From the IMG/VR virus record IMGVR_UViG_3300007708_000028, positions 1 through 23,066 of that record: DNA of 23,066 nucleotides; one strand, given 5' to 3'. This stretch comes from a virus. Shown piece by piece: positions 1 to 23,066 of this stretch (its first letter is position 1; each line of letters opens with the position of its first letter). The notes beneath the pieces are model-generated. The model saw nothing but the letters and a program-made list of their open reading frames with translations, was not told the DNA's origin and ran no database searches. Made by a program: the position numbers and the translations under genes.

Positions 1-334
1 TGATCACAGTGTCAACATCTTTATAGATACCAAAAGGCACAAAGGAACGATCAACCGCGGGAATCATTGCGATTGTGTCAAAAGAGATGGAAGTTGCGGC
101 AGCTGGCGATTGCTTCACCATCGGCACAACGTTTTCAACAGTAACTTGTTCGTGTACACCGGGTACACGGTACGCGCCACGGCCCACGCGATTTTGCTCT
201 TTCATAATCCAAGTCGGCCACTTAGATTCGCCAAGCTTTTCCATCACTTCGATGATTTGCTTACGGGTAACACTGCCTGAGGCTTTAACATCGGGAAAAT
301 GCTCGAGCAAAGCATTCAAAAACACATTATTCAT
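1..334 (-). CDS. cobS: CobS-like MoxR-type AAA ATPase, N-terminal part (partial)
   Basis: The first 111 codons are present and the gene continues past the left edge of the window. The reading starts MNNVFLNALLEHF and has an N-terminal helical region containing TRKQIIEVMEKLG, then WPTWIMKEQNRVGRGAYRVPG, a low-complexity linker, and a VPFGIYKDV segment. The last resembles the lead-in to the AAA core of phage and bacterial CobS proteins. The Walker motifs lie outside the window, so ATPase activity is inferred from family likeness only. In bacteria CobS is an AAA+ subunit of aerobic cobaltochelatase that works with the VWA protein CobT. Here a VWA gene lies about 450 bp upstream on the same strand, which suggests a working pair. 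GC of the lines checked is about 48-53%, clearly above the neighbouring DNA, hinting at acquisition. No strong ribosome-binding site precedes the ATG. Confidence 0.72.
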   Translation of the reverse strand, partial: MNNVFLNALLEHFPDVKASGSVTRKQIIEVMEKLGESKWPTWIMKEQNRVGRGAYRVPGVHEQVTVENVVPMVKQSPAAATSISFDTIAMIPAVDRSFVPFGIYKDVDTVI

Positions 335-347
335 AATATAGTCCAAT

Positions 348-446
348 TCAAGGTTTCATCACAAAAAGAAAGTAGTAAAACAGAGGCCCAAAAAACAACG
401 ATGCGATCACTGTAGCTTGGAAGAGTTCAACAATAAATTTTTTCAT
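348..446 (-). CDS. Putative 32-residue single-pass membrane peptide
   Basis: This short frame reads MKKFIVELFQATVIASLFF and continues GPLFYYFLFVMKP before a TGA stop 13 nt ahead of the cobS-like ATG. The whole middle is hydrophobic and could form one membrane helix, with a lysine pair at the N end. The -10 box at 452-457 lies only five bases before the ATG, so a transcript from this promoter would start almost on the start codon. The peptide would then be made from a leaderless mRNA, or the frame is only the untranslated leader of the cobS-like gene. No Shine-Dalgarno sequence is visible. No family is recognised. I consider it possible but unproven. Confidence 0.35.
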   Translation of the reverse strand: MKKFIVELFQATVIASLFFGPLFYYFLFVMKP

Positions 447-451
447 AGTTT

Positions 452-480
452 ATTATACATCAAGTTAGATTTACTGTACA
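452..480 (-). promoter_or_regulatory. Sigma70-like promoter (TGTACA-N17-TATAAT) before the cobS region
   Basis: Read on the minus strand, TGTACA (475-480) is followed after exactly 17 bases by TATAAT (452-457). It sits immediately after the stop of the 65-residue gene and drives the small membrane ORF and the cobS-like gene. It is one of five near-identical promoter-like sequences in the window. Confidence 0.7.
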
Positions 481-487
481 CAGAAAA

Positions 488-685
488 TCAAAGAAAGTCG
501 TAGGAAGTTTCAGTGCCGCACTTGCCGAAAGACAAAGCAGCAGTGACTTTTTCGCAGAGTTCGTTGAAGACATCTACAGCAATCTTGGAGTCATGTGTCT
601 CCAAGAACAAAGTGCCGTTGAAGAAATATGCTGGAGTGACAGTGATGCTTTTAACAACTTCGAGAACTTTAACTTCGTTTATCAT
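488..685 (-). CDS. Hypothetical 65-residue protein
   Basis: The product is not recognised. It is a small soluble protein with an alternating beta-like N-terminal half (EVKVLEVVKSITVTPAYFFNG) and a helix-like C-terminal half (KIAVDVFNELCEKVTAALSFG). It has two cysteines and no membrane segment. The start is supported by an AAGGAAA Shine-Dalgarno sequence just upstream, and a TGTACA-N17-TATAAT promoter lies at 711-739. The gene therefore forms its own transcription unit between the VWA gene and the cobS region. T4-like phages commonly carry such small early genes, many of unknown function, but nothing in the sequence assigns one here. Confidence 0.7.
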   Translation of the reverse strand: MINEVKVLEVVKSITVTPAYFFNGTLFLETHDSKIAVDVFNELCEKVTAALSFGKCGTETSYDFL

Positions 686-710
686 TTGGTTTCCTTGTTT
701 TGATAGATCA

Positions 711-739
711 ATTATACCACGAATTTGATTTATTGTACA
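711..739 (-). promoter_or_regulatory. Sigma70-like promoter (TGTACA-N17-TATAAT) before the 65-residue gene
   Basis: On the minus strand TGTACA is at 734-739 and TATAAT at 711-716, with a 17-base spacer ending in GG. It lies 26 bp upstream of the ATG at 685 and directly downstream of a hairpin that follows the VWA gene. Confidence 0.75.
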
Positions 740-742
740 CTA

Positions 743-767
743 ATAGTTGACAGTTTTAGTCAACTAT
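743..767. terminator. AT-rich inverted repeat between VWA gene and next promoter
   Basis: ATAGTTGAC and GTCAACTAT form a perfect 9-bp stem around a 7-base loop. On the minus strand it lies just after the stop of the VWA gene and just before the promoter at 711-739, a natural place for a terminator. No long U-tract follows in the minus direction, while four Ts follow on the plus strand. It may be a weak or bidirectional terminator, or an mRNA-stabilising or operator hairpin. Confidence 0.45.
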
Positions 768-785
768 TTTATGTACACCTTGGTA

Positions 786-2879
786 TTACGCGATCTCAGC
801 AACAAAGTTATTCAGAATGATTCGAGAAGTTTTATTTTTATTCATTACTTTTCCAAGAGCTTTTGATACTGCCGCGGCATTCATATCATTATTAACTGTA
901 TCCAAATTTATATCATTTTGAACACCAATAGATTTATTATCTGCCAGATAATATTTTGAATATCCACTTACTGCAATTTCAGTAAATTTATTTGCTCGTA
1001 GTTTAGATTGAATATCATATGTATTAATTGATTTATTGCCGCTGGTTTTAACAACAAAACGATTAACAGAACTATAATTATTATAGATCAAATTAAATCC
1101 AATATTAATTGTATTATATCTATCTTTAATGATATTTAACAAAGCGTGTGCCTGAACTTCTGCATCCTCTGTAATCTGATATTGTTTACCAGTACGTGAA
1201 TCTTTAATAAAGTTTTTATTAACGGTTCTTCTAGAGTCTGTGTAAGAAGACTCATATAATGTTTTTTTATTGTGAGCAGATAACGACCCACCTTCACCAT
1301 CAGTGAGAGTAATAAAAATAGTCTTTTCAACAGCATTATTACCAATAAACTTACCAACATAATCCGTCATAAATACGAGTGCTTCATTTAATGGAGTACC
1401 TGACAAACTGAATTGACCGTTACCGCAATTCAACCAGATTTTATTCAGCAAATAAGAAGACATCTCACTTGTTTCACGCTCGTTCATTTTACTAGAAAAC
1501 AATTCAAAGAGAGTGAATTGATAAGATTTACCAATACCGTTTTCATTTTCAATCAACGACTCATAATTAATGTCTTTAAAATAATTAGAACTAAACGCAA
1601 ATACTTGAAATGGCACATTAATACGACGAGCAAACATGACTAAATTGATTAACTGAGCAACAGTATTAGACATATAAGAGTCCATTGAGCCAGACCAATC
1701 TAACAGCAAAATCATTCCATGTTGTTTACCATCTTTCACAACTGTTAATTGTTTAAACAATTCATCTTTGATTCTATAGCCAAAGAGTTTCTTAGCATCC
1801 AATTGACCTGTTTTAGAAGTCTGTGCACGCTTCCAATTGGAAGCAGATTTACGCATTTCAAACTCTTTAACCATGTTATTCACAACAGAGTTATTTTCTT
1901 CGCGAAAAGTTTGTGCTTTTCTATTAACAGCAATAAGATTATCATGACGACGAAGCATTTCGTCTTTCATTTCAGAAAGAACTCTTTTATAAGCAATGAT
2001 TGGATTATCAGAAGTAGTATAAGAAAACGCTGGTTCAAAATACTGATAATTAGTATTAGCATCAGCACTTGATTGAAGATTATTTTCAAGAGCACTTACT
2101 GTAGTAGCTTTGATTTTTTTATCTATTTCAGCTTTTTCAATATTATCTTTAACTTCTTGCTTACGCTCTTCAATGGCAGCTTTTTTGCCACTATTATCAC
2201 CAACATCTTCTTCTTCAGATTCAAAATTACCACCTTCTAACTGATTGTCAAAATCATCGTAATCTTCATCTTCAAAATCATCACCATCGTCAGAATCAAT
2301 GTTCTCCAACATTTGCAATCTAACTTGTGTTTCAGCATTTTCTTTGCAATATTGATACAAGCGATCAGAGACATCAATAACTTCTTTAAGTGATTCTACT
2401 TTATCAATTTCATTGATAAACTTCATCTCATTACTATTAAATTTAATGCCGCAACTAACTCCAAGCTTATAAAACAAGTTAATGCGATCAATAAAACTCA
2501 TTGTTTGAACATCAGTATCTTTGATTTCAAAGAAATCGCGTGCCATTAGTTCTTTATAACCAGCAGTAAATGATTTGCGCGCACCAGGATAACGGTGTTT
2601 CATTTTACGCTCAATACGAGCGTCTTCAACCACATTTAAGTAGTGACCATAAGCACGATCTTTACCTTCTTGGGCATTGCCGTATTCTGTAGTGGTGTAG
2701 AGTGCGTGGCCGACCTCGTGAAGAATAAGCATTTCTTCAGTGGTGTTGGCAATTTCTTTCCATTGCGGAAGAACCAGCACACGCTTGTCAATTTGAAAAG
2801 ATGCTGTGGTCACATTGCCACGTACTACAGTGAGGTCTTCGTTGGCCAGCAGCTTAGCCAGCAGATCATTGGAATTCAT
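786..2879 (-). CDS. Zincin (HExxH)-VWA domain protein, CobT/NorD-like architecture
   Basis: This 697-residue protein combines three recognisable parts. Residues about 50-100 hold HEVGHALYT (HExxH at 54-58) followed by NVVEDARIERKM, where the ED/RIE segment could supply the third zinc ligand of a gluzincin-type site. Residues about 195-229 are a strongly acidic linker. Residues about 385-560 form a VWA domain with an intact metal-ion-dependent adhesion site: DWSGSM at 394-399, the threonine of SGTPL at 495, and the aspartate of LTDGEG at 527. CobT, ChlD and NorD have a comparable acidic-linker plus VWA layout and act with MoxR-type AAA ATPases. The nearby cobS-like gene fits that pairing. I infer an ATPase-assisted protease or remodelling factor; the substrate is unknown. 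The start is set by TAGGAGATTGT before the ATG and a promoter at 2902-2930. The first 80-90 codons are much GC-richer than the rest. Confidence 0.8.
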   Translation of the reverse strand: MNSNDLLAKLLANEDLTVVRGNVTTASFQIDKRVLVLPQWKEIANTTEEMLILHEVGHALYTTTEYGNAQEGKDRAYGHYLNVVEDARIERKMKHRYPGARKSFTAGYKELMARDFFEIKDTDVQTMSFIDRINLFYKLGVSCGIKFNSNEMKFINEIDKVESLKEVIDVSDRLYQYCKENAETQVRLQMLENIDSDDGDDFEDEDYDDFDNQLEGGNFESEEEDVGDNSGKKAAIEERKQEVKDNIEKAEIDKKIKATTVSALENNLQSSADANTNYQYFEPAFSYTTSDNPIIAYKRVLSEMKDEMLRRHDNLIAVNRKAQTFREENNSVVNNMVKEFEMRKSASNWKRAQTSKTGQLDAKKLFGYRIKDELFKQLTVVKDGKQHGMILLLDWSGSMDSYMSNTVAQLINLVMFARRINVPFQVFAFSSNYFKDINYESLIENENGIGKSYQFTLFELFSSKMNERETSEMSSYLLNKIWLNCGNGQFSLSGTPLNEALVFMTDYVGKFIGNNAVEKTIFITLTDGEGGSLSAHNKKTLYESSYTDSRRTVNKNFIKDSRTGKQYQITEDAEVQAHALLNIIKDRYNTINIGFNLIYNNYSSVNRFVVKTSGNKSINTYDIQSKLRANKFTEIAVSGYSKYYLADNKSIGVQNDINLDTVNNDMNAAAVSKALGKVMNKNKTSRIILNNFVAEIA

Positions 2880-2953: not shown

Positions 2954-4666
2954 TTACACAATCGTAGAGAAGTCGTTTTTCTTCTCTACCCGTATCACAG
3001 AGTGAAATTTGTCAAAGAGTTGATCGCCTTTGTGCGAGATCACAAAGATGTTTGACTTGTCATTTGGTGCGTTCATAATCGAAAGAAAGTAATCAGTGCC
3101 AGATACATCCAACGAAGAATCAAAAATCTCATCTAGAATTAACAAGTTAGTGTTTACAGAGTTCTTCATCTTCGCAATTGATCTCCATGTAAAAAGAATT
3201 GCCAAATCTATTCGCATCTTTTCGCCTTCACTGAATGAAGCATAAGTAAACTCATCTCGGAATCTAGACTTGATAACCTCATTAAACGATTCATCTAATT
3301 CAAAGTGAATATAGAAATCCATTGCAGATAAGTAACCATTGATAAGCTTATTCATCACGGGTAGATACTCACGAATAATCGCGGTCTTAACACCGGTGTC
3401 TTTCAATAAAAGCGAAGCAATCTCTTGCACATGCTTGTCTTCAAACAATTGGTTTTTAGTTTCTATTAGTTTTAAAGCTTCACCTGCAATATCTTTTAGT
3501 CTTTGCTTTTCAGCATCGATGTTATCAGTGTTAGATTCAGCAGTAGAAATATCTTCGTTAAGCTTTTTGTTTTGCTTAATAAGATTAGAAACACTCATAT
3601 TAATAGCATTACACTCAATATTAATTGAAGTAAGTTGCTTATTGATTATATTCTGAGACTTTTGGCGTTCAATAAGTTTTTCATATGCATCTTCAACAAT
3701 CTTAATATTATTCTCTAAATTAATCTGATCAGTAGAAAGAGTTTGAACAATAGAAGCTTTATGTTCATGTGGTATACCTTGAGAACATGAAGGACACGTT
3801 TCATTCTTATTAAAAAATCCAATAGTCTTGTCGTTGTTCTCAATCGTTTGTGTGAAGAGAGTTTTAGCTTTTACAGCTGAGTTGATAAGTTTCTCAAGTT
3901 CAGGAGAATTTTCAGATGCAACTAACAAGCTGTTAACTTTATCGTTTAAATCTTCCCAGCGAGCCTCATTGATTTTAATCTCTTCTTCATTATCCTTAAT
4001 TTGCTTACGTATTTGATCCACCTGATCTTTTTTAGAGTTAACCATTGTCCCAATGAGTTTTTTCTGAGCCTCAACATTGTTTTTCGCCCCCTCAATCTTA
4101 TTCTCAATTGTTTTGATGAGATCTTTGGTGTCATTAATACGCTCCTTAAGAATAGTGTTCATTGTAGAGAACACACTGATGTCTAGAATATCTTCAATTA
4201 CTGCTCTACGTTGAGCAGCAGGCAACTGCATAAATGGAACAAACGAAGCAGAGCCAAGGATAACTACCTGAGTGAATGACTTATAGTTAAGTTTAAGAAT
4301 TTGTTGTTCAAGAATTTTTTGATAATCTTTTGCCGCTGCATCTTGGTTAAACAACACGCCATCACACCAGATTTCAAAGATGTTTGGCTTCAAACCGCGA
4401 GATATCTTGTATTGAGAAGTGCCGATCTGAAATTCAATATCAACAAGACAGTTCTTGCCATTGATACTATTAACAAGCTGAGGCTTATTGATATTACGAA
4501 ATGGTTTACCAAACAGAACAAAGGTAATTGCATCCAATATAGTCGACTTACCCTCGCCATTCTTTCCTACGATAAGAGTAGATACAGATTTGTCTAGCAA
4601 AATAGTGTTAGCAACGTTACCTGTAGATAGAAAGTTTTTGTATGTTATTTTTTTAAATACAATCAT
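2954..4666 (-). CDS. 46: Recombination endonuclease subunit gp46 (SbcC/Rad50-like)
   Basis: This 570-residue ABC-type ATPase corresponds to T4 gp46, which with gp47 forms the Mre11/Rad50-like complex that resects DNA ends for recombination-dependent replication. Walker A is GKNGEGKS at 34-41. A central coiled coil (about 170-410) is interrupted by a zinc-hook motif CPSC at 291-294, used for dimerisation. The ABC signature FSEGEKMR is at 478-485, Walker B LLILDEIFD at 508-516, and the switch histidine is in ISHKG at 543-547. All catalytic motifs are intact and the length is typical. The ATG comes 6 bp after the gp47 stop, so the pair is cotranscribed and probably translationally coupled; its own Shine-Dalgarno is weak. 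No separate promoter is visible. Confidence 0.96.
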   Translation of the reverse strand: MIVFKKITYKNFLSTGNVANTILLDKSVSTLIVGKNGEGKSTILDAITFVLFGKPFRNINKPQLVNSINGKNCLVDIEFQIGTSQYKISRGLKPNIFEIWCDGVLFNQDAAAKDYQKILEQQILKLNYKSFTQVVILGSASFVPFMQLPAAQRRAVIEDILDISVFSTMNTILKERINDTKDLIKTIENKIEGAKNNVEAQKKLIGTMVNSKKDQVDQIRKQIKDNEEEIKINEARWEDLNDKVNSLLVASENSPELEKLINSAVKAKTLFTQTIENNDKTIGFFNKNETCPSCSQGIPHEHKASIVQTLSTDQINLENNIKIVEDAYEKLIERQKSQNIINKQLTSINIECNAINMSVSNLIKQNKKLNEDISTAESNTDNIDAEKQRLKDIAGEALKLIETKNQLFEDKHVQEIASLLLKDTGVKTAIIREYLPVMNKLINGYLSAMDFYIHFELDESFNEVIKSRFRDEFTYASFSEGEKMRIDLAILFTWRSIAKMKNSVNTNLLILDEIFDSSLDVSGTDYFLSIMNAPNDKSNIFVISHKGDQLFDKFHSVIRVEKKNDFSTIV

Positions 4667-4672
4667 AGGTTC

Positions 4673-5722
4673 TTATTTAGATTCATAGTTAAGAGCTTCT
4701 GTGTAAAGAGTCTTCATAAAAGATTTGATTTTATCTTTACTAGTGTCTGTTTCTAGCGAATCAATGTAGTTCATTAAAACAGAAGAAGTGTCTTCGAGAT
4801 TGATAGTTTCATCAACCTGACCTTCACTAAACTCCGAGAAGTCTTCTATAATTTTAACATCTTGTGGATTAGATTTATATACTGAAGTGATGAATTGGTC
4901 AAACTTATAGTGATTTGTTTTATTCACTACAATGATCTTTACGTATTTGTCTGTGAAAACATCAAAATCTGTAATCAAGTCTTGTGTATCATCATATTCA
5001 TGGCGCATAAACATTGTATATGTGTTCTGAATAAATTCTAACTCTTCAGTAAACAGATCAAAGATATGGAATCCACGTGGATCGTTGTAATCTTGCCATG
5101 TTAACTCATAAGGGTTACCAAGGTAATGGATAGAACCTTGAGAAGATTTGTGGTGATAGTGACCTGAGAAGGTTTTGTTGAATTTATTAAAGATACCCGC
5201 GGATAGACCACCATGCGATTCAGCACCACGATACATTACAAATCCGCTAATCTCTAGATGACCCATACAGATTTTAGCTTTGGTGTTTTCAATCTCTTGC
5301 ATGCTAGATTCATAGTTATCTGCACAAATCCAAGGGAGGAAACATACGTCATAGCCATTGATATCGAGTGTCGTTGGCTCATCGATGATTTCAACATTGT
5401 GATAACCCATGAGTAACAGATCAGGAGAATTGACTTCGTTAGTATTCTTGAAGTACGTGTCGTGGTTACCCGCAATCATAACAATGTTGATCTCAGCGCG
5501 CTCAGCTTTATCAAAGAACATTTGCTTAGATCTAGCAAGTGTGTTGAAGTTAACATACTTACGACGATCAAAGGTATCACCAAGGATTAAAATCGTGGAA
5601 ATATCTCTTTCTTTAAGAGTAGGAAAGAAAATATTGTCATAAAAGTTTTGATAGTAGTCTAGACACTGTACACTATCTCCGCGAGCACCAAAGTGCTGAT
5701 CAGTTATTAACGCTACTTTCAA
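4673..5722 (-). CDS. 47: Recombination endonuclease subunit gp47 (SbcD/Mre11-like)
   Basis: This 349-residue calcineurin-like metallophosphoesterase corresponds to T4 gp47, the nuclease partner of gp46. The metal-binding motifs appear in order: DQH (8-10), GDTFD (48-52), GNHD (85-88), GHLE (154-157) and GHYH (187-190). The start codon is TTG at 5722, because the frame runs into a TGA a few codons upstream and the DQH motif needs this N-terminus. A GGAAAAG Shine-Dalgarno sequence lies just before it. The TTG overlaps the stop of the 44-residue upstream gene as TTGA, implying coupled translation. The acidic C-terminal region (about 290-349) is less conserved and may contact gp46. Confidence 0.95.
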   Translation of the reverse strand: MKVALITDQHFGARGDSVQCLDYYQNFYDNIFFPTLKERDISTILILGDTFDRRKYVNFNTLARSKQMFFDKAERAEINIVMIAGNHDTYFKNTNEVNSPDLLLMGYHNVEIIDEPTTLDINGYDVCFLPWICADNYESSMQEIENTKAKICMGHLEISGFVMYRGAESHGGLSAGIFNKFNKTFSGHYHHKSSQGSIHYLGNPYELTWQDYNDPRGFHIFDLFTEELEFIQNTYTMFMRHEYDDTQDLITDFDVFTDKYVKIIVVNKTNHYKFDQFITSVYKSNPQDVKIIEDFSEFSEGQVDETINLEDTSSVLMNYIDSLETDTSKDKIKSFMKTLYTEALNYESK

Positions 5723-8892: not shown

Positions 8893-9429
8893 TTAATCAA
8901 ATTTGTACATTGTATAGCTGAATGTTGCGCTACCAACTAGATATTGTACATCTGTGTTAGTGGAACTAAAGGTAAGAGATTGAATAGATGATGGAAAAAC
9001 ATCCGTGAATGACACTGTCTGAATCGGATTGTTTGTGTTATCTAAGATAGTGAGAGTAGCATCCGAAAACATTGTTTCATTCATTCTTGTAGCTAAACCT
9101 AGATTAGCCGCAGCATAGTCTACAGCATCAGCGTTATCTTTAGGGTAACCTAAAGCATACAACCAATCGTAGACAGCTCGGTAATTGCTCATTTTGTTAT
9201 CTACTAGGAATTGAACCTGTAGCGGATCAAAGTCTAGCATTTCACCAGGCTGAGGGATTTTTACATATGGGTTGGCTTGTTCAATAGTAACCATACTAAT
9301 CCCTGGCAGAGTTACTTCTTGGCAAAAGAATGTTAGTTCAGGTAATTTTGCAATTGAAAACAGATAGCCATTTGGCGACAATGGATTAATGTTTTCCGGA
9401 ATCGGACAAGATAAAGTTCTAACGGTCAT
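8893..9429 (-). CDS. gp19-family tail tube-like protein
   Basis: The 178-residue protein belongs to the T4 gp19-like tube family by its order of elements: a short N-terminal arm, FSIAKLPELTFFCQEVTLPG, a PYVKIPQPGEMLDFDPLQ segment, then FLVDNKMSNYRAVYDWLYALG. It ends with strands leading to TFSYTMYKFD. It is distinct from the canonical tube gene at 15005-15598. Proteins of this form serve in phages as tube, tube-cap or baseplate-hub adaptor subunits, and which applies here is not visible. It has its own late promoter (TATAAATA at 9451-9458), a strong GAGGAG ribosome-binding site, and a terminator upstream that isolates it from gp23. It is therefore an independent late gene. Confidence 0.82.
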   Translation of the reverse strand: MTVRTLSCPIPENINPLSPNGYLFSIAKLPELTFFCQEVTLPGISMVTIEQANPYVKIPQPGEMLDFDPLQVQFLVDNKMSNYRAVYDWLYALGYPKDNADAVDYAAANLGLATRMNETMFSDATLTILDNTNNPIQTVSFTDVFPSSIQSLTFSSTNTDVQYLVGSATFSYTMYKFD

Positions 9430-15004: not shown

Positions 15005-15598
15005 TTAGATTGGAAGTGGGAAAGTGCCAATAGGTGTATCAACTGAGACATTTACACCGGATCCACTTGGTGTAGATGTATTAGAGATCCAATAGTTATA
15101 CGTGAATGTAACATCGAATGTTTCTAAAGCGCCAGTAGATTCATACGATAGAGCAATTGCACCAATTTCTGTTGGGAACGAATCTACGAATTTATAAACT
15201 TTAACTGTTGCACCATTACGATCTAACTGATGAACTTCTAAATCGATCTGATAATCAGCTGGATTTGTAAGACCATTTGTATCGCCAATATTTTGGATAC
15301 CATTTGACCATTGTTCTAAAGCATTACGGATACCAAAGTTGGTATCGTTGTAAATGCTAACAGTCCAAGGAGCAAAAGTACGTTCGCCAGCAAAGTTAAT
15401 TGGACGACCTCTATATTGTACTGTAATTGGATTAATTGTGGATGCTGGCAACTGAGCTGCATTACACAAGAATTGAGCCTGATTACCCGCGACCTGACCA
15501 CCAGGCACGAATGATGGGAAATTTAAAAAAACTTTGAATTGGTTGGCGCGTGCACCTCCACCAATTAATCTAGATTTAAAATCTGTGACGTTTGCCAT
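15005..15598 (-). CDS. 19: Tail tube protein gp19
   Basis: This 197-residue protein is the canonical T4-type tail tube subunit, beginning with FKSRLIGGGARANQFKV and FLCNAAQLPAS. It continues with VQYRGRPINFAGERTFAPW, IRNALEQWSNGI and DSFPTEIGAIALSYES. It polymerises inside the gp18 sheath and forms the DNA channel. It is somewhat longer than T4 gp19 (163); the extra length is mostly a Ser/Gly/Pro-containing C-terminus after YNYWISN. It follows gp18, as in T4, and has an exact TATAAATA late promoter (15620-15627) and an AAGGAG ribosome-binding site. A hairpin separates it from gp18. Confidence 0.94.
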   Translation of the reverse strand: MANVTDFKSRLIGGGARANQFKVFLNFPSFVPGGQVAGNQAQFLCNAAQLPASTINPITVQYRGRPINFAGERTFAPWTVSIYNDTNFGIRNALEQWSNGIQNIGDTNGLTNPADYQIDLEVHQLDRNGATVKVYKFVDSFPTEIGAIALSYESTGALETFDVTFTYNYWISNTSTPSGSGVNVSVDTPIGTFPLPI

Positions 15599-15654: not shown

Positions 15655-17961
15655 TTAGCCGCCGATTTCGTCAAAACTTACACTCGAACGTGCTGCCACG
15701 AAGTTTAGAGTGATGAAGTTGATAGAACGATTTGGCTTAATAAAGATGCTAGCGACAAACTCGTTACGATCGATAACATCGCCAGTATTGTTTGTTGTAT
15801 CACAACGGACTCTGAAGTCAACAATACCACGACGTCCTTGAACGTTACGTAAGAATGGTTCCACTAAGTTACGGAATTGAGCTCTTGTGAAGTCATCGTT
15901 GAACTCGAATAGTTGGAACTTAGCTGCTGTAGCAACGGCTTTCTCTAACACAATGAACAATCTACGTACGTTAACACGATCAAATGCTGTTGGGTTAGTT
16001 GTGAAAGTCTTATCACCAAATAGAACAGTACCTTGACCAGGGAATGTCACAACAGGGTTAATACCATAGCTGTACAATGCATCTCTGTCAACTTGTGTTG
16101 GATTGAACGCCAACTTAACAACGTTCTTAATCTGTCCACGGTTAAAACCACCTGGTGAGAACCAAGGATCATTAGTGTAATCTGTACGTGCACATAGACC
16201 AGCAACGTCGCCATTCAATGGAATCCAACGGTATTGATCAGTGTAACGGTCATATTGGTACTTAGCACCAGAGTCCATTACCGCGTAAGTTGATCTATAG
16301 TTTACGGCATCAGCAAAAGCTTTAACAGCAGTAACTGCAGCAGAAGTTGAACCAACGATAGGCGAACCATCGCTATTACGTGGAGAGAAGAACACTACGC
16401 AGTCTTTACGAACTTCAGCAACGTTAGCAATAACGTAATTTACTGTAGCGGCGCTTGCATCTCCAACCGCGATTAACGAGATATCAAATTGATCGGCGTC
16501 AGCGAATTGAAGATAAGCAGCCTCATAGTTACCAGCTGTTGCTGCATAGTCATCAACACCACCGTTTAACACGATTGCTGCTGGAACAGAGTTAAGATCG
16601 CGCAGGTTGGTACCAACCGTAACAGTAGAAATATCGCGATCCCAATCAGCGTTCTGCAAATCGTTGATTTGAGCACTAACTGGAGTAGAGATAACATACA
16701 CATACTTAGAACTTGCAGCGATTGTATCTCTAAAATATACGTTTGTGCCATCATTGCGAGTAACACCTTTGATCTTTGATAGATACGAGAATTTCTCTAA
16801 AACTGAGCCAGGTGTTCCTGTCCACTTACCAGTTGAATCATCTAGAATCAAGATGTGCAATTGATCGTCAGCGATACTTTTCTTAGCAGCTTGATCAGAA
16901 GTTCCTGGAGCGCCTGTAAAGTTTTTGGTAATTACTGATGAATAAGTGCTAGAAGGATTAGCAACAGCATATGTCCAAACAGCTTTATCGATAACTAATA
17001 CTGTTAAGCCATTGCCTAGAGCACCAGGATAGCGAGCAGCAAACATACCATAAACAGACGTTTCATAGTTTCTGAAGTCTTCTATGTATGTAGTAGAATT
17101 CTGAATTTTTACACCAGTTGCAGTAACAAACACAGAAGCTAGTGTTGGAGCAGTTGGAGTACCTAGTGTACCAGTGTTAGAATTAGTGATCGTAACTGTT
17201 GGAGCTGATGTGTAACCTGAACCAACATTAGTAATTCTAACTCCTAACAGTGCGCTTGTAGCAAGTTCAATAGTTGCAGCAGCACCAGTACCTGTAGTAT
17301 CACTCGAAGCACGAGTAATTGTTACAGTTGGTGTGTTAAAGTAACCAGAACCAGATTGTACAATAGTGATAGCAGTAATGGCGCCAGCGACAACAGTAGC
17401 TGTTGCTGTAGCTCTTACTCCACCTTCTAAATCAGGCGCAGAAATTGTTACAGTTGGAGCTGCTGTATATAAAGTGCCGTTGCTTGTGCGTGTAATATTA
17501 GCAGTGATAATACCAACACCCTGAAATACAGGAACACCAGTAGCAGTTACACCACCTTCTATTTGAGGAGCACTAAAGGCAATAGTAGTTTCATGACCTG
17601 GTTTATAACCAAAATTTTGTACAACACCTGAAACTGTAGTAGCGGTGACTGTAACAGCACTGATAGATCCAGAAACTAAAGAGGTTGCGTTTCTTAAACC
17701 AGCAGTATCAACGCGGTTTACGATTAAATTGTTTGTGTAAGCCAGGAAGTTAGCAGCAGTAAAGAATGACTTGTAATTGCTATCATTAGGGCCACCAAAA
17801 GTCTGAATCAATACATCTTCAGAAGTTACTGTTGTAGGCTCGGACACCGGTCCCCATTGGAAAGTACCGGCAACGGCACCTGCTGATGTAGAAACTGATG
17901 GAATGATAGACGAAAAGTCTTTTTCAATGACTGTAACGCCTGGAGATAGTGCAAATGGCAT
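15655..17961 (-). CDS. 18: Contractile tail sheath protein gp18 with inserted repeat domain
   Basis: The 768-residue product has the sheath N-terminus SPGVTVIEKDFSS with TFQWGPVSEPT, and the C-terminal core VNVRRLFIVLEKAVATAAK and FLRNVQGRRGIVDFRVRCD. It ends FITLNFVAARSSVSF, as in T4 gp18 (659 residues). Between residues about 100 and 285 it carries roughly four copies of a 40-50-residue beta repeat with the core PTVTI or similar (for example LYTAAPTVTISAP, SGYFNTPTVTI, SGYTSAPTVTI). This part is absent from T4 and is probably a surface-exposed insertion on the sheath. The start follows AAGGAGAAC. A late-promoter-like AATAAATA lies at 17996-18003. A hairpin follows the stop. Confidence 0.95.
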   Translation of the reverse strand: MPFALSPGVTVIEKDFSSIIPSVSTSAGAVAGTFQWGPVSEPTTVTSEDVLIQTFGGPNDSNYKSFFTAANFLAYTNNLIVNRVDTAGLRNATSLVSGSISAVTVTATTVSGVVQNFGYKPGHETTIAFSAPQIEGGVTATGVPVFQGVGIITANITRTSNGTLYTAAPTVTISAPDLEGGVRATATATVVAGAITAITIVQSGSGYFNTPTVTITRASSDTTGTGAAATIELATSALLGVRITNVGSGYTSAPTVTITNSNTGTLGTPTAPTLASVFVTATGVKIQNSTTYIEDFRNYETSVYGMFAARYPGALGNGLTVLVIDKAVWTYAVANPSSTYSSVITKNFTGAPGTSDQAAKKSIADDQLHILILDDSTGKWTGTPGSVLEKFSYLSKIKGVTRNDGTNVYFRDTIAASSKYVYVISTPVSAQINDLQNADWDRDISTVTVGTNLRDLNSVPAAIVLNGGVDDYAATAGNYEAAYLQFADADQFDISLIAVGDASAATVNYVIANVAEVRKDCVVFFSPRNSDGSPIVGSTSAAVTAVKAFADAVNYRSTYAVMDSGAKYQYDRYTDQYRWIPLNGDVAGLCARTDYTNDPWFSPGGFNRGQIKNVVKLAFNPTQVDRDALYSYGINPVVTFPGQGTVLFGDKTFTTNPTAFDRVNVRRLFIVLEKAVATAAKFQLFEFNDDFTRAQFRNLVEPFLRNVQGRRGIVDFRVRCDTTNNTGDVIDRNEFVASIFIKPNRSINFITLNFVAARSSVSFDEIGG

Positions 17962-20390: not shown

Positions 20391-21296
20391 TTATTCTCCG
20401 AATGGATTGCCAGAATCGAAGACAACATTTACAGCTTCTGTCTTAAACGAATTATTGTCACCATATGAATTAGGTTTATCTATGTTCACATGTACTGTAG
20501 CTGTAGCGGTTGCAGTAACTCCTGATGTTGGAGCTGACATTGTTACAGTTGGAACAGACGTGTAACCAGATCCGGGATTTGTGACAGTAACTTTAATAAC
20601 TTTTCCAGCGGTAGATGCAATTCCTAGCGTTGCTACAGCAGTAGCGCCTAGTCCACCACCGCCGCTTATTGTCACAGTTGGAACAGACGTGTAACCAGAA
20701 CCTTGATTAGCTACGCTTATACTCAAGACTTCACCATATGCAGATCGTGCAACATCAGTTGAAAAGGTCTTTAGGGATTCAAATGCATCAAGAGTATCAA
20801 TACCTGTATCAATGTTTTCAGATGCGTATTGGAATAGTTCTACTTCAAGACGGAAGACATATAGTTTACCAAGCTGATAGAACGGATCTTGATGTTCAAC
20901 AAACTTTATTTCAAACAACCCGTTAGTCAATGGAAAGTATAGTAGGTCACCTTCGGCTGGTCTATTAGGAAGAATAGCATCAGCATGCTTACCAACTAGT
21001 CGTTGCCATGTGCGGCGTGCTACAGTAAGAGTAGCAGACTGTTCCATCATAAGACCAAACTTATTGATAAATGCTCCTTGACCTTCGAATCCAGAAACAG
21101 ATTCAAGATACATTTCAATTGGATATGCATTCTTAAACTGTGATAGTCTATCTTCTCCGAGGATTTCATCCTTTGCAATAAGGATCCTCGGGATATAATA
21201 CATATCCTGACCATAAATTGTGATAGACTCTATAACAAGATCTTCTAAAAGATTCTGTTCGTTTCTAGTGCCATTGCTAAAATATACACTTCTCAT
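20391..21296 (-). CDS. 14: Neck protein gp14 with inserted repeat domain
   Basis: The first 170 residues follow the gp14 neck pattern: NEQNLLEDLVIESITIYGQD, IPRILIAKDEILGEDRLSQF, and EGDLLYFPLTNGLFEIKFVE with LYVFRLEVELFQY. T4 gp14 with gp13 forms the neck that seals the filled head and accepts the tail. Residues about 193-270 carry two copies of a glycine-rich beta repeat (GSGYTSVPTVTISG and GSGYTSVPTVTMSAP). These are related to those in the sheath protein here and not part of T4 gp14. A 26-bp exact DNA repeat underlies them. The gene starts 3 bases after gp13 and ends one base before gp15. Confidence 0.92.
   Translation of the reverse strand: MRSVYFSNGTRNEQNLLEDLVIESITIYGQDMYYIPRILIAKDEILGEDRLSQFKNAYPIEMYLESVSGFEGQGAFINKFGLMMEQSATLTVARRTWQRLVGKHADAILPNRPAEGDLLYFPLTNGLFEIKFVEHQDPFYQLGKLYVFRLEVELFQYASENIDTGIDTLDAFESLKTFSTDVARSAYGEVLSISVANQGSGYTSVPTVTISGGGGLGATAVATLGIASTAGKVIKVTVTNPGSGYTSVPTVTMSAPTSGVTATATATVHVNIDKPNSYGDNNSFKTEAVNVVFDSGNPFGE
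20545..20699. repeat. Pair of 26-bp exact direct repeats inside gp14
   Basis: The 26 bases at 20545-20570 recur exactly at 20674-20699, spaced 129 bp start to start. They encode the conserved GYTSVPTV core of both repeat units, and near-exact DNA identity suggests recent duplication or gene conversion. Confidence 0.85.
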
Positions 21297-22194: not shown

Positions 22195-23066
22195 ATGGCA
22201 ATAACACTAGGACTAGGTGTCACTTATCATGACACCTCTGTAGAAACATCAGCTAAATCACCTATTCGTGCTATTTTTGGGTATGGTAATGGTGCTACTA
22301 ACAAAACAAACTTAGTTAATAATTATGGTGGTGTCGCGTTAGATACAACAGGTGTTGGAACTGCTAGGGCCGAGTTAGCGGCAGCAGGCTATGGTGGCGA
22401 TAAAGCCATTTTTGGTTATGGTCAGATTGGAGCATACGTATCAATGACCAATCTTGTATCAAATATAGGTGTTGTTGCAGGTGATATCACAGGTGTTGGT
22501 ACAGGCAGAAAGGCTCTAGCAGCAGCCACTTACGGTGGTGATAAGGCTATATTTGGATATGGAGAAAAAGCAAACAACACCGCTGAGGATTTTACTGCTG
22601 TAACAAACAAGGTATCCAACACAGGTGTTGTTGTGACAGATACAGCTGGTATTGGTATAGCAAGACGGAGTCTTGCTGCTGCTAGTTATGGTGTCGATAA
22701 AGCTATTTTCAGTTATGGTGCAGGCAACACCGGCGGCGGTGGAGGTGTGAGCACTTTTAATATTCCCACTAACTTAGTATCAAATACAGGCGTTGTTGGT
22801 GCTAGTGTAACTGGGGTCGGTACTGGAAGATCATCTCCAGCGGCAGCAGGCTATGGTGGCGATAAGGCTATTTTTGGTTATGGGGCTGTTATTGGCGCGG
22901 CATCTATGACAAATTTAGTATCAAACACAGGTATTATTGCTGCTGATGTTACTAATATTACTACTGCTAGATATATTTTAGCGGCAGCAGGATATGGTGG
23001 TGATAAGGCTATTTTTGGATATGGTACTAACAACACTGGTACTCCACCAAGTTTTTCATTAACAAA
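22195..23066 (+). CDS. Kelch-like YG-DKAIFGYG repeat protein, probable virion adhesin (partial)
   Basis: The only clear plus-strand gene in the window runs off the right edge after 290 codons. After MAITLGLGVTYHD it consists of about five repeats of 45-55 residues. Each reads roughly IFGYG, a variable Gly/Asn/Thr-rich stretch, TNLVSNTGVV, D-TGVGTAR, then LAAAGYGGDK. IFGYG or IFSYG recurs at residues 27, 72, 119, 171, 226 and 273. The arginine followed by AAA-YG and a short strand resembles kelch beta-propeller blades, so a propeller or beta-solenoid on a tail fibre or capsid surface is likely; this is inferred. The variable stretch after IFGYG carries the length differences, including a GGGGG run at 180-184. 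A late promoter lies upstream, while the ribosome-binding site is weak (AGAG). No stop is reached. Confidence 0.85.
   Translation, partial: MAITLGLGVTYHDTSVETSAKSPIRAIFGYGNGATNKTNLVNNYGGVALDTTGVGTARAELAAAGYGGDKAIFGYGQIGAYVSMTNLVSNIGVVAGDITGVGTGRKALAAATYGGDKAIFGYGEKANNTAEDFTAVTNKVSNTGVVVTDTAGIGIARRSLAAASYGVDKAIFSYGAGNTGGGGGVSTFNIPTNLVSNTGVVGASVTGVGTGRSSPAAAGYGGDKAIFGYGAVIGAASMTNLVSNTGIIAADVTNITTARYILAAAGYGGDKAIFGYGTNNTGTPPSFSLT

Follow-up and report, generated by a model that had tools for sequence, protein, structure and literature searches.

What do the common phage gene cobS and its neighbour do in an infected cell? The question is raised by a fragment of an uncultured T4-like phage, a 23,066-base virus record (IMG/VR record IMGVR_UViG_3300007708_000028, analysed over its whole length and called the window below), in which the start of a cobS-type gene for an AAA+ ATPase lies beside the gene for a 697-residue protein with a zincin-like and a VWA domain. 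The presence of cobS is currently taken as a sign that the phage raises the vitamin B12 production of its host, and the gene ranks as an auxiliary metabolic gene present in >90% of T4-like cyanophages (PMC10665884). Databases label the pair either 'vitamin B12 gene' or 'peptidase', and the published readings conflict in the same way. A MoxR-type AAA protein together with a VWA protein bearing an N-terminal metallopeptidase domain was described from jumbo phages in 2021, with a proposed role in virion assembly with proteolytic processing (PMC7824862). For cyanophages and haloviruses, viral CobST was proposed to borrow the CobN of the host, and 'peptidase' was called a mis-annotation (PMC8651126); whether cyanophage cobS functions as it does in the host was stated as unknown elsewhere (PMC9983427).

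The sequence evidence collected here favours a protein-remodelling machine, probably a protein-cutting one, over vitamin B12 synthesis. If the pair is indeed a protein-remodelling protease, the vitamin B12 inference would not hold for a phage gene that is among the commonest in the ocean. The two published readings, metallopeptidase chaperone and mis-annotated CobT, can be reconciled as one superfamily with and without a zinc site. The initial annotation of the window expected the protease-like reading to change how phage cobS genes are read; the reading is not new, as its core idea had been published in 2021 (PMC7824862) and the 'peptidase' annotation was already present in cyanophages. The additions made here are the conservation across the whole family, the strict co-occurrence of the two genes, the link to CobT through HExxH-bearing intermediates and the gene setting.

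The two genes and the parts of the larger protein, including the motifs of its metal-ion-dependent adhesion site (MIDAS), are located in the window as follows.

1..334, minus strand: AAA+ ATPase gene ('cobS', PHROG 249), first 111 codons, with the ATG at 334, cut by the window edge
786..2879, minus strand: 697-residue zincin-like and VWA protein, PHROG 459 'peptidase' (phrog_459, E 1.7e-167, residues 6-697)
2346..2879, minus strand: N-terminal zincin-like domain, residues 1-178 (AlphaFold2 pLDDT 92.3, pTM 0.87)
2706..2720, minus strand: HEVGH, residues 54-58, in helix 45-61, with H54 and H58 as predicted zinc ligands and E55 as predicted catalytic residue
2610..2627, minus strand: EDARIE, residues 85-90, in helix 75-96
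2175..2294, minus strand: acidic low-confidence linker, about residues 196-235 (pLDDT <50 at 197-235)
1080..1727, minus strand: VWA domain with MIDAS, about residues 385-600 (fold match to the NorD VWA and the MDN1 MIDAS domain)
1683..1700, minus strand: MIDAS motif 1, DWSGSM, residues 394-399 (D394, S396 and S398 in 118/118)
1389..1403, minus strand: MIDAS motif 2, SGTPL, residues 493-497 (T495 and P496 in 115/115)
1296..1304, minus strand: MIDAS motif 3, TDG, residues 526-528 (D527 and G528 in 115/115)

The PHROG 459 profile matches across the whole protein. All elements that the initial annotation had read from the 697-residue protein, namely HEVGH, EDARIE, the acidic linker, DWSGSM, SGTPL and LTDGEG (at about residues 525-530), were recovered as it described them. 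Shuffling the protein 20,000 times never produced a HExxH followed by ED.R.[ED], and HExxH alone came up in 0.6% of the shuffles. The third zinc ligand is probably E85.

Relatives of the 697-residue protein were detected by tblastn in 463 phage records, nearly all of them T4-like cyanophages, with further ones in Pelagibacter, Stenotrophomonas, Ochrobactrum and Pseudoalteromonas phages, and at least 585 IMG/VR stretches encode a relative. H54, E55 and H58 are kept in 117/117 homologues and E85, D86 and R88 in 119/119, and HExxH is invariant in the 98 aligned N-domains, so that the protein shares with gluzincins a conserved HExxH within a predicted active-site helix. The VWA domain has an intact MIDAS, with D394, S396, S398, T495 and D527 invariant. 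One of the homologue search patterns itself contained HEVGH, and the conservation of HExxH was accordingly considered as a selection artefact; this was rejected, as the 29 members found outside that pattern all keep both HExxH and ED.R.[ED]. The loss of histidines that would have spoken against a zinc site was thus seen in no homologue. Both motifs are also kept in Pelagibacter, Stenotrophomonas and Ochrobactrum phages (HTVC008M, DLP6 and OspM_OC). In Rhizobium phage X66, the protein called 'CobT' has HExxH as well, its second motif being the variant EDVMIE. In Pseudoalteromonas phage vB_Psh_XG4 (L014:4884-7126), the VWA and HExxH domains each have a gene of their own, the order of the two is reversed, and a split AAA frame comes next, which suggests that the two domains work as separable modules.

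The N-domain is recognised neither by Pfam nor by sequence search of the PDB and was therefore examined by fold. The AlphaFold2 model, built from the 98 aligned N-domains, comprises three strands, the HExxH helix and the helix bearing E85. Its eight best PDB fold matches are all zincins (the minigluzincins jannalysin, abylysin and selecase, and ArdC) with probabilities of 0.72-0.99, none of them significant, and a weak and likewise non-significant similarity links it to the DNA-associated zincins ArdC, PprI/IrrE and Wss1. Among viral predicted structures, 16 match the N-domain at E<=0.001, the named ones including cobalamin biosynthesis and CobT labels. Among the VWA domains matched by the model of the full-length protein (pLDDT 77.9) are that of NorD, as seen in NorQ-NorD complexes (E 2e-5 to 7e-4), and the MDN1 MIDAS domain, both being partners or parts of AAA motors. 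Around HEVGH, where the initial annotation called for a zincin fold, a zincin-like fold is predicted, though with PDB matches short of significance, and the step from HExxH plus ED-RIE to a metalloprotease-like site gains partial support from the invariant residues and from this prediction.

The 111-codon piece of the AAA gene in the window holds none of the AAA module and gave no family match, nor any phage match by tblastn at E<=0.01. The separate contig L002, whose DNA is 100% identical over window positions 1-2826, was therefore used, and the full gene was found at L002:2496-3629. The encoded protein of 377-382 residues bears Walker A (GPTGNGKS) and Walker B (LLLDELD) motifs and matches AAA_5 (7.7e-11) and CbbQ_C (4e-5) in Pfam as well as phrog_249 (4.6e-101). 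It has the Walker motifs and the CbbQ_C-type C-terminus of MoxR AAA proteins, with Walker A kept in 91/92 relatives. What had been called a CobS-like N-terminus at 1-334 is thus the real start of an AAA gene, as L002 reveals, the AAA module itself lying beyond the piece. The N-terminus of the AAA protein looks winged-helix-like, the helix-turn-helix reading coming from inspection by eye and a weak Pfam match (HTH_30, E 0.047). Part of this N-terminus recurs (E 6.5e-7 to 0.02) in a small separate protein encoded directly downstream of the AAA gene, at L002:3630-3971, L017:9641-10024, L019:9516-9980, L020:5302-5763, L023:3307-3813, L024:3309-3848, L025:6012-6404 and L055:9476-10003; it is perhaps a shared adaptor.

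That the two proteins work together is strongly supported by the linkage and strict co-occurrence of their genes. The AAA gene is present in 63 of the 66 loci that have at least 3.5 kb of downstream flank, and it is on the same strand in 97 of the 99 cases found. The pair nearly always lies between gp46 and gp45: gp46 (77/77), gp47 (61/61), gp55 (48/48) and uvsW (34/34) stand upstream, and gp45 (77/77) and gp44 (55/55) downstream, in every locus reaching them. The counts of records per genus carrying each gene are nearly identical, and a record-by-record comparison of 11 complete phage genomes found both genes in seven, neither in four (S-B68, S-H34, S-N03 and MA01) and a single one in none. 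In S-CRM01 and S-CREM2 the pair stays together away from its usual position. The genes are thus linked and co-inherited as in MoxR AAA-VWA pairs, and the association proposed from the window alone extends to the related phages.

Two apparent exceptions were rejected. At locus L046 the AAA gene seemed to be lost, and it was found elsewhere on the same contig. S-CREM2 has been reported to be without cobS (PMC10665884), which was not reproduced, as the AAA and zincin-VWA genes are both present at 31023-34226 of OR473000.1 (the record holding locus L169).

The relationship to cobaltochelatase was examined with a set of true CobT proteins, the 30 top-scoring PF06213 loci from a bacterial phylum sample. 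HExxH occurs at the equivalent position in 0/30 of them, with one chance match far outside the domain, and nearly all keep the register of the second motif (VEQARVE or similar). The sample also contains four lower-scoring PF06213 hits, which have both HExxH and EDxRxE. Compared directly, the phage protein matches CobT in the VWA region only (E 3.8e-7), with a marginal N-domain match (E 0.02) that is too weak alone, and the two were therefore bridged through the HExxH-bearing bacterial intermediates. In profile comparisons, most of the phage protein aligns with these four proteins (E 1.5e-23), and they in turn match CobT over the full length (E 6.9e-25). The simplest reading is a single superfamily whose chelatase branch would have lost the zinc site, and the phage 'CobT' appears to be a relative of CobT in which that site is intact. 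Three of the four intermediates adjoin DUF3150 (PF11348) genes (L157:1497-4683, L158:1752-5180 and L161:2034-5262), and the one in L157 is also near a CbbQ-type AAA gene; HExxH-VWA with DUF3150 may be a related mobile-element cassette.

As for cobalt insertion itself, the 697-residue protein gave neither a CobT equivalog hit (TIGR01651) nor a PF06213 match, and the AAA protein of L002 scored 82.2 bits against CobS TIGR01650, over the AAA core only, well short of the 558.55 required of an equivalog. CobN, the catalytic subunit of the cobaltochelatase, was looked for in 15 phage records that carry the pair, four of them isolate-collection phage genomes, and was detected in none, the control genomes being positive. 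Among cellular assemblies holding the pair, CobN-family genes are present in 3/3 cyanobacterial and 0/7 other ones, where phage contigs in metagenome-assembled genome bins are possibly mis-binned; the Nonlabens contig holding the pair is plainly a T4-like phage. The initial proposal that the pair acts 'instead of inserting cobalt' is favoured by the lack of HExxH in CobT, the absence of CobN from the phages and the unreached CobS and CobT cut-offs.

Taken at the level of the sequences, the pair is probably an AAA-driven remodelling machine of the proteolytic kind. The AAA+ motor, of the MoxR/NorQ type and presumably hexameric, would be joined by a VWA cofactor whose N-terminal gluzincin-like metalloprotease domain would bind zinc, and the VWA/MIDAS domain would dock on the AAA ring. 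Driven by ATP, the motor would open or thread a protein of the phage or the host and hand it to the zincin domain for cutting. Such action would fall in the replication and late-transcription phase and would take place within the infected cell, outside the virion. We infer the intracellular role from the constant setting with recombination, late-sigma and clamp genes; no usable data on the expression timing of cobS or the peptidase gene were found in the literature. In S-CREM2 the pair lies at 31.0-34.2 kb, and none of the 52 virion proteins of this phage (virion list in PMC10665884) maps there, which makes packaging of the pair improbable. That the AAA motor and its zincin-VWA cofactor form a protein-cutting machine of the replication and late-transcription phase, neither a virion component nor a cobaltochelatase, has the odds slightly on its side. 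A wider statement is offered tentatively and with clearly less confidence: the phage 'CobT' proteins across virus families would be active AAA-driven zinc proteases of the CobT superfamily, the cellular cobaltochelatase CobT a derived branch that lost its zinc site, the substrate a replication or late-transcription factor, and cyanophage 'cobS' not a B12 gene.

Several points weigh against a protein-cutting machine and bear on its rivals. The N-domain has no PDB fold match at E<=0.001 (best E 0.1), biochemistry was found for no family member, and the domain might serve to bind zinc or a substrate rather than to cut. One rival is a remodelling AAA-VWA chaperone that does not cut proteins, of the NorQ/NorD, CbbQ/CbbO or RavA/ViaA type, with the zincin-like domain as a structural zinc- or substrate-binding module. 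The match of the VWA fold to NorD in NorQ-NorD complexes agrees with it, as do the known MoxR-VWA pairs, which remodel proteins without cutting, and CobT, which retains a related N-domain without HExxH; however, the catalytic-type E55 is as invariant as the histidines, which is not expected of a purely structural site, and the chaperone is considered unlikely. The relatedness of the VWA and AAA parts to CobT and CobS also tells against proteolysis, as does a possible chelatase-assisting role in cyanobacteria, where all three genomes with the pair have CobN-family genes. These same observations are what viral CobST has in its favour, in which the pair would insert cobalt together with host CobN and raise cobalamin production (PMC8651126). 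It is improbable given the CobS score and the missing CobT hit, the lack of HExxH in true CobT, and the absence of CobN from 15/15 phage records and 7/7 non-cyanobacterial assemblies, some bins of which may be mis-assigned. The pair is moreover present in a Pelagibacter phage. The Pelagibacter host is not known to synthesise cobalamin.

The other two alternatives are forms of the protein-cutting machine itself. A chaperone-protease that processes structural proteins in virion assembly (PMC7824862) would differ in timing and target, and it can draw on the AAA-VWA precedent of Acidianus two-tailed virus (cited in PMC7824862) and on the maturation of phage head proteins by proteolysis. The pair, however, lies beside recombination, late-sigma and clamp genes rather than head or tail genes, contributes none of the S-CREM2 virion proteins, and occurs in phages that already have a gp21-type prohead protease, which makes this version very improbable. 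Little credence at all is given to a DNA-associated protease that would remove protein roadblocks or cross-links from phage DNA under replication, with the winged-helix-like N-terminus of the AAA protein as its guide: the location by gp46/47, gp45/44 and uvsW, the resemblance to ArdC, PprI/IrrE and Wss1, and the helix-turn-helix-like N-terminus with its recurrence downstream would suit it, but the fold matches are not significant and the helix-turn-helix was seen by eye and by the weak HTH_30 match.

The minus strand of the window carries genes for terminase, sheath, tail tube, portal, prohead protease, scaffold and major head protein, then uvsY, uvsW, a late-sigma-like gene, gp47 and gp46, followed by the 697-residue protein and the AAA gene start on the same strand. 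The immediate neighbours are listed below.

4673-5722, minus strand: gp47, upstream neighbour in the conserved setting
2954-4666, minus strand: gp46, upstream neighbour in the conserved setting
488..685, minus strand: open reading frame of 65 residues between the two genes of the pair, without family match

Elsewhere in the window, repeats of the GSGYTSxPTVTI type occur in both the neck protein (20391-21296) and the tail sheath protein (15655-17961), and these repeats have matches in many unrelated families of phage structural proteins. There are two genes for tail-tube-like proteins of phrog_45 (8893-9429 and 15005-15598), one in the usual place and the other beyond the major head protein gene. 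On the plus strand, a repeat-built open reading frame (22195-23064, e.g. GYGGDKAIFGYG) without family match extends past the window end.

Among known systems, the closest by description is that of group 2.2 jumbo phages (ASV44729.1/ASV44728.2; PMC7824862), which have the same domain architecture and gene pair, whereas the phages considered here are ordinary-sized T4-like ones with the pair placed among replication genes. PHROG 459 'peptidase' and PHROG 249 'porphyrin biosynthesis' of cyanophages (T4-GC 146 and 150) are the same full-length families in the same gene order, yet identity is ~30%, the phage of the window representing a separate uncultured lineage. The aerobic cobaltochelatase CobS/CobT has related AAA and VWA domains and a common N-domain register (VEDARIE/VEQARVE), and differs in that CobT is without HExxH, the phage proteins score far under the equivalog cut-offs and the phages are without CobN. 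The MoxR-VWA pairs NorQ/NorD and CbbQ/CbbO have the same AAA_5 plus CbbQ_C motor and a NorD-like VWA fold, while the phage VWA partner additionally bears a zincin-like domain. The minigluzincins jannalysin, abylysin and selecase, the best though not significant PDB fold matches, share the HExxH helix and the following Glu-bearing helix, but they are small stand-alone zymogen-type peptidases without a VWA or AAA partner.

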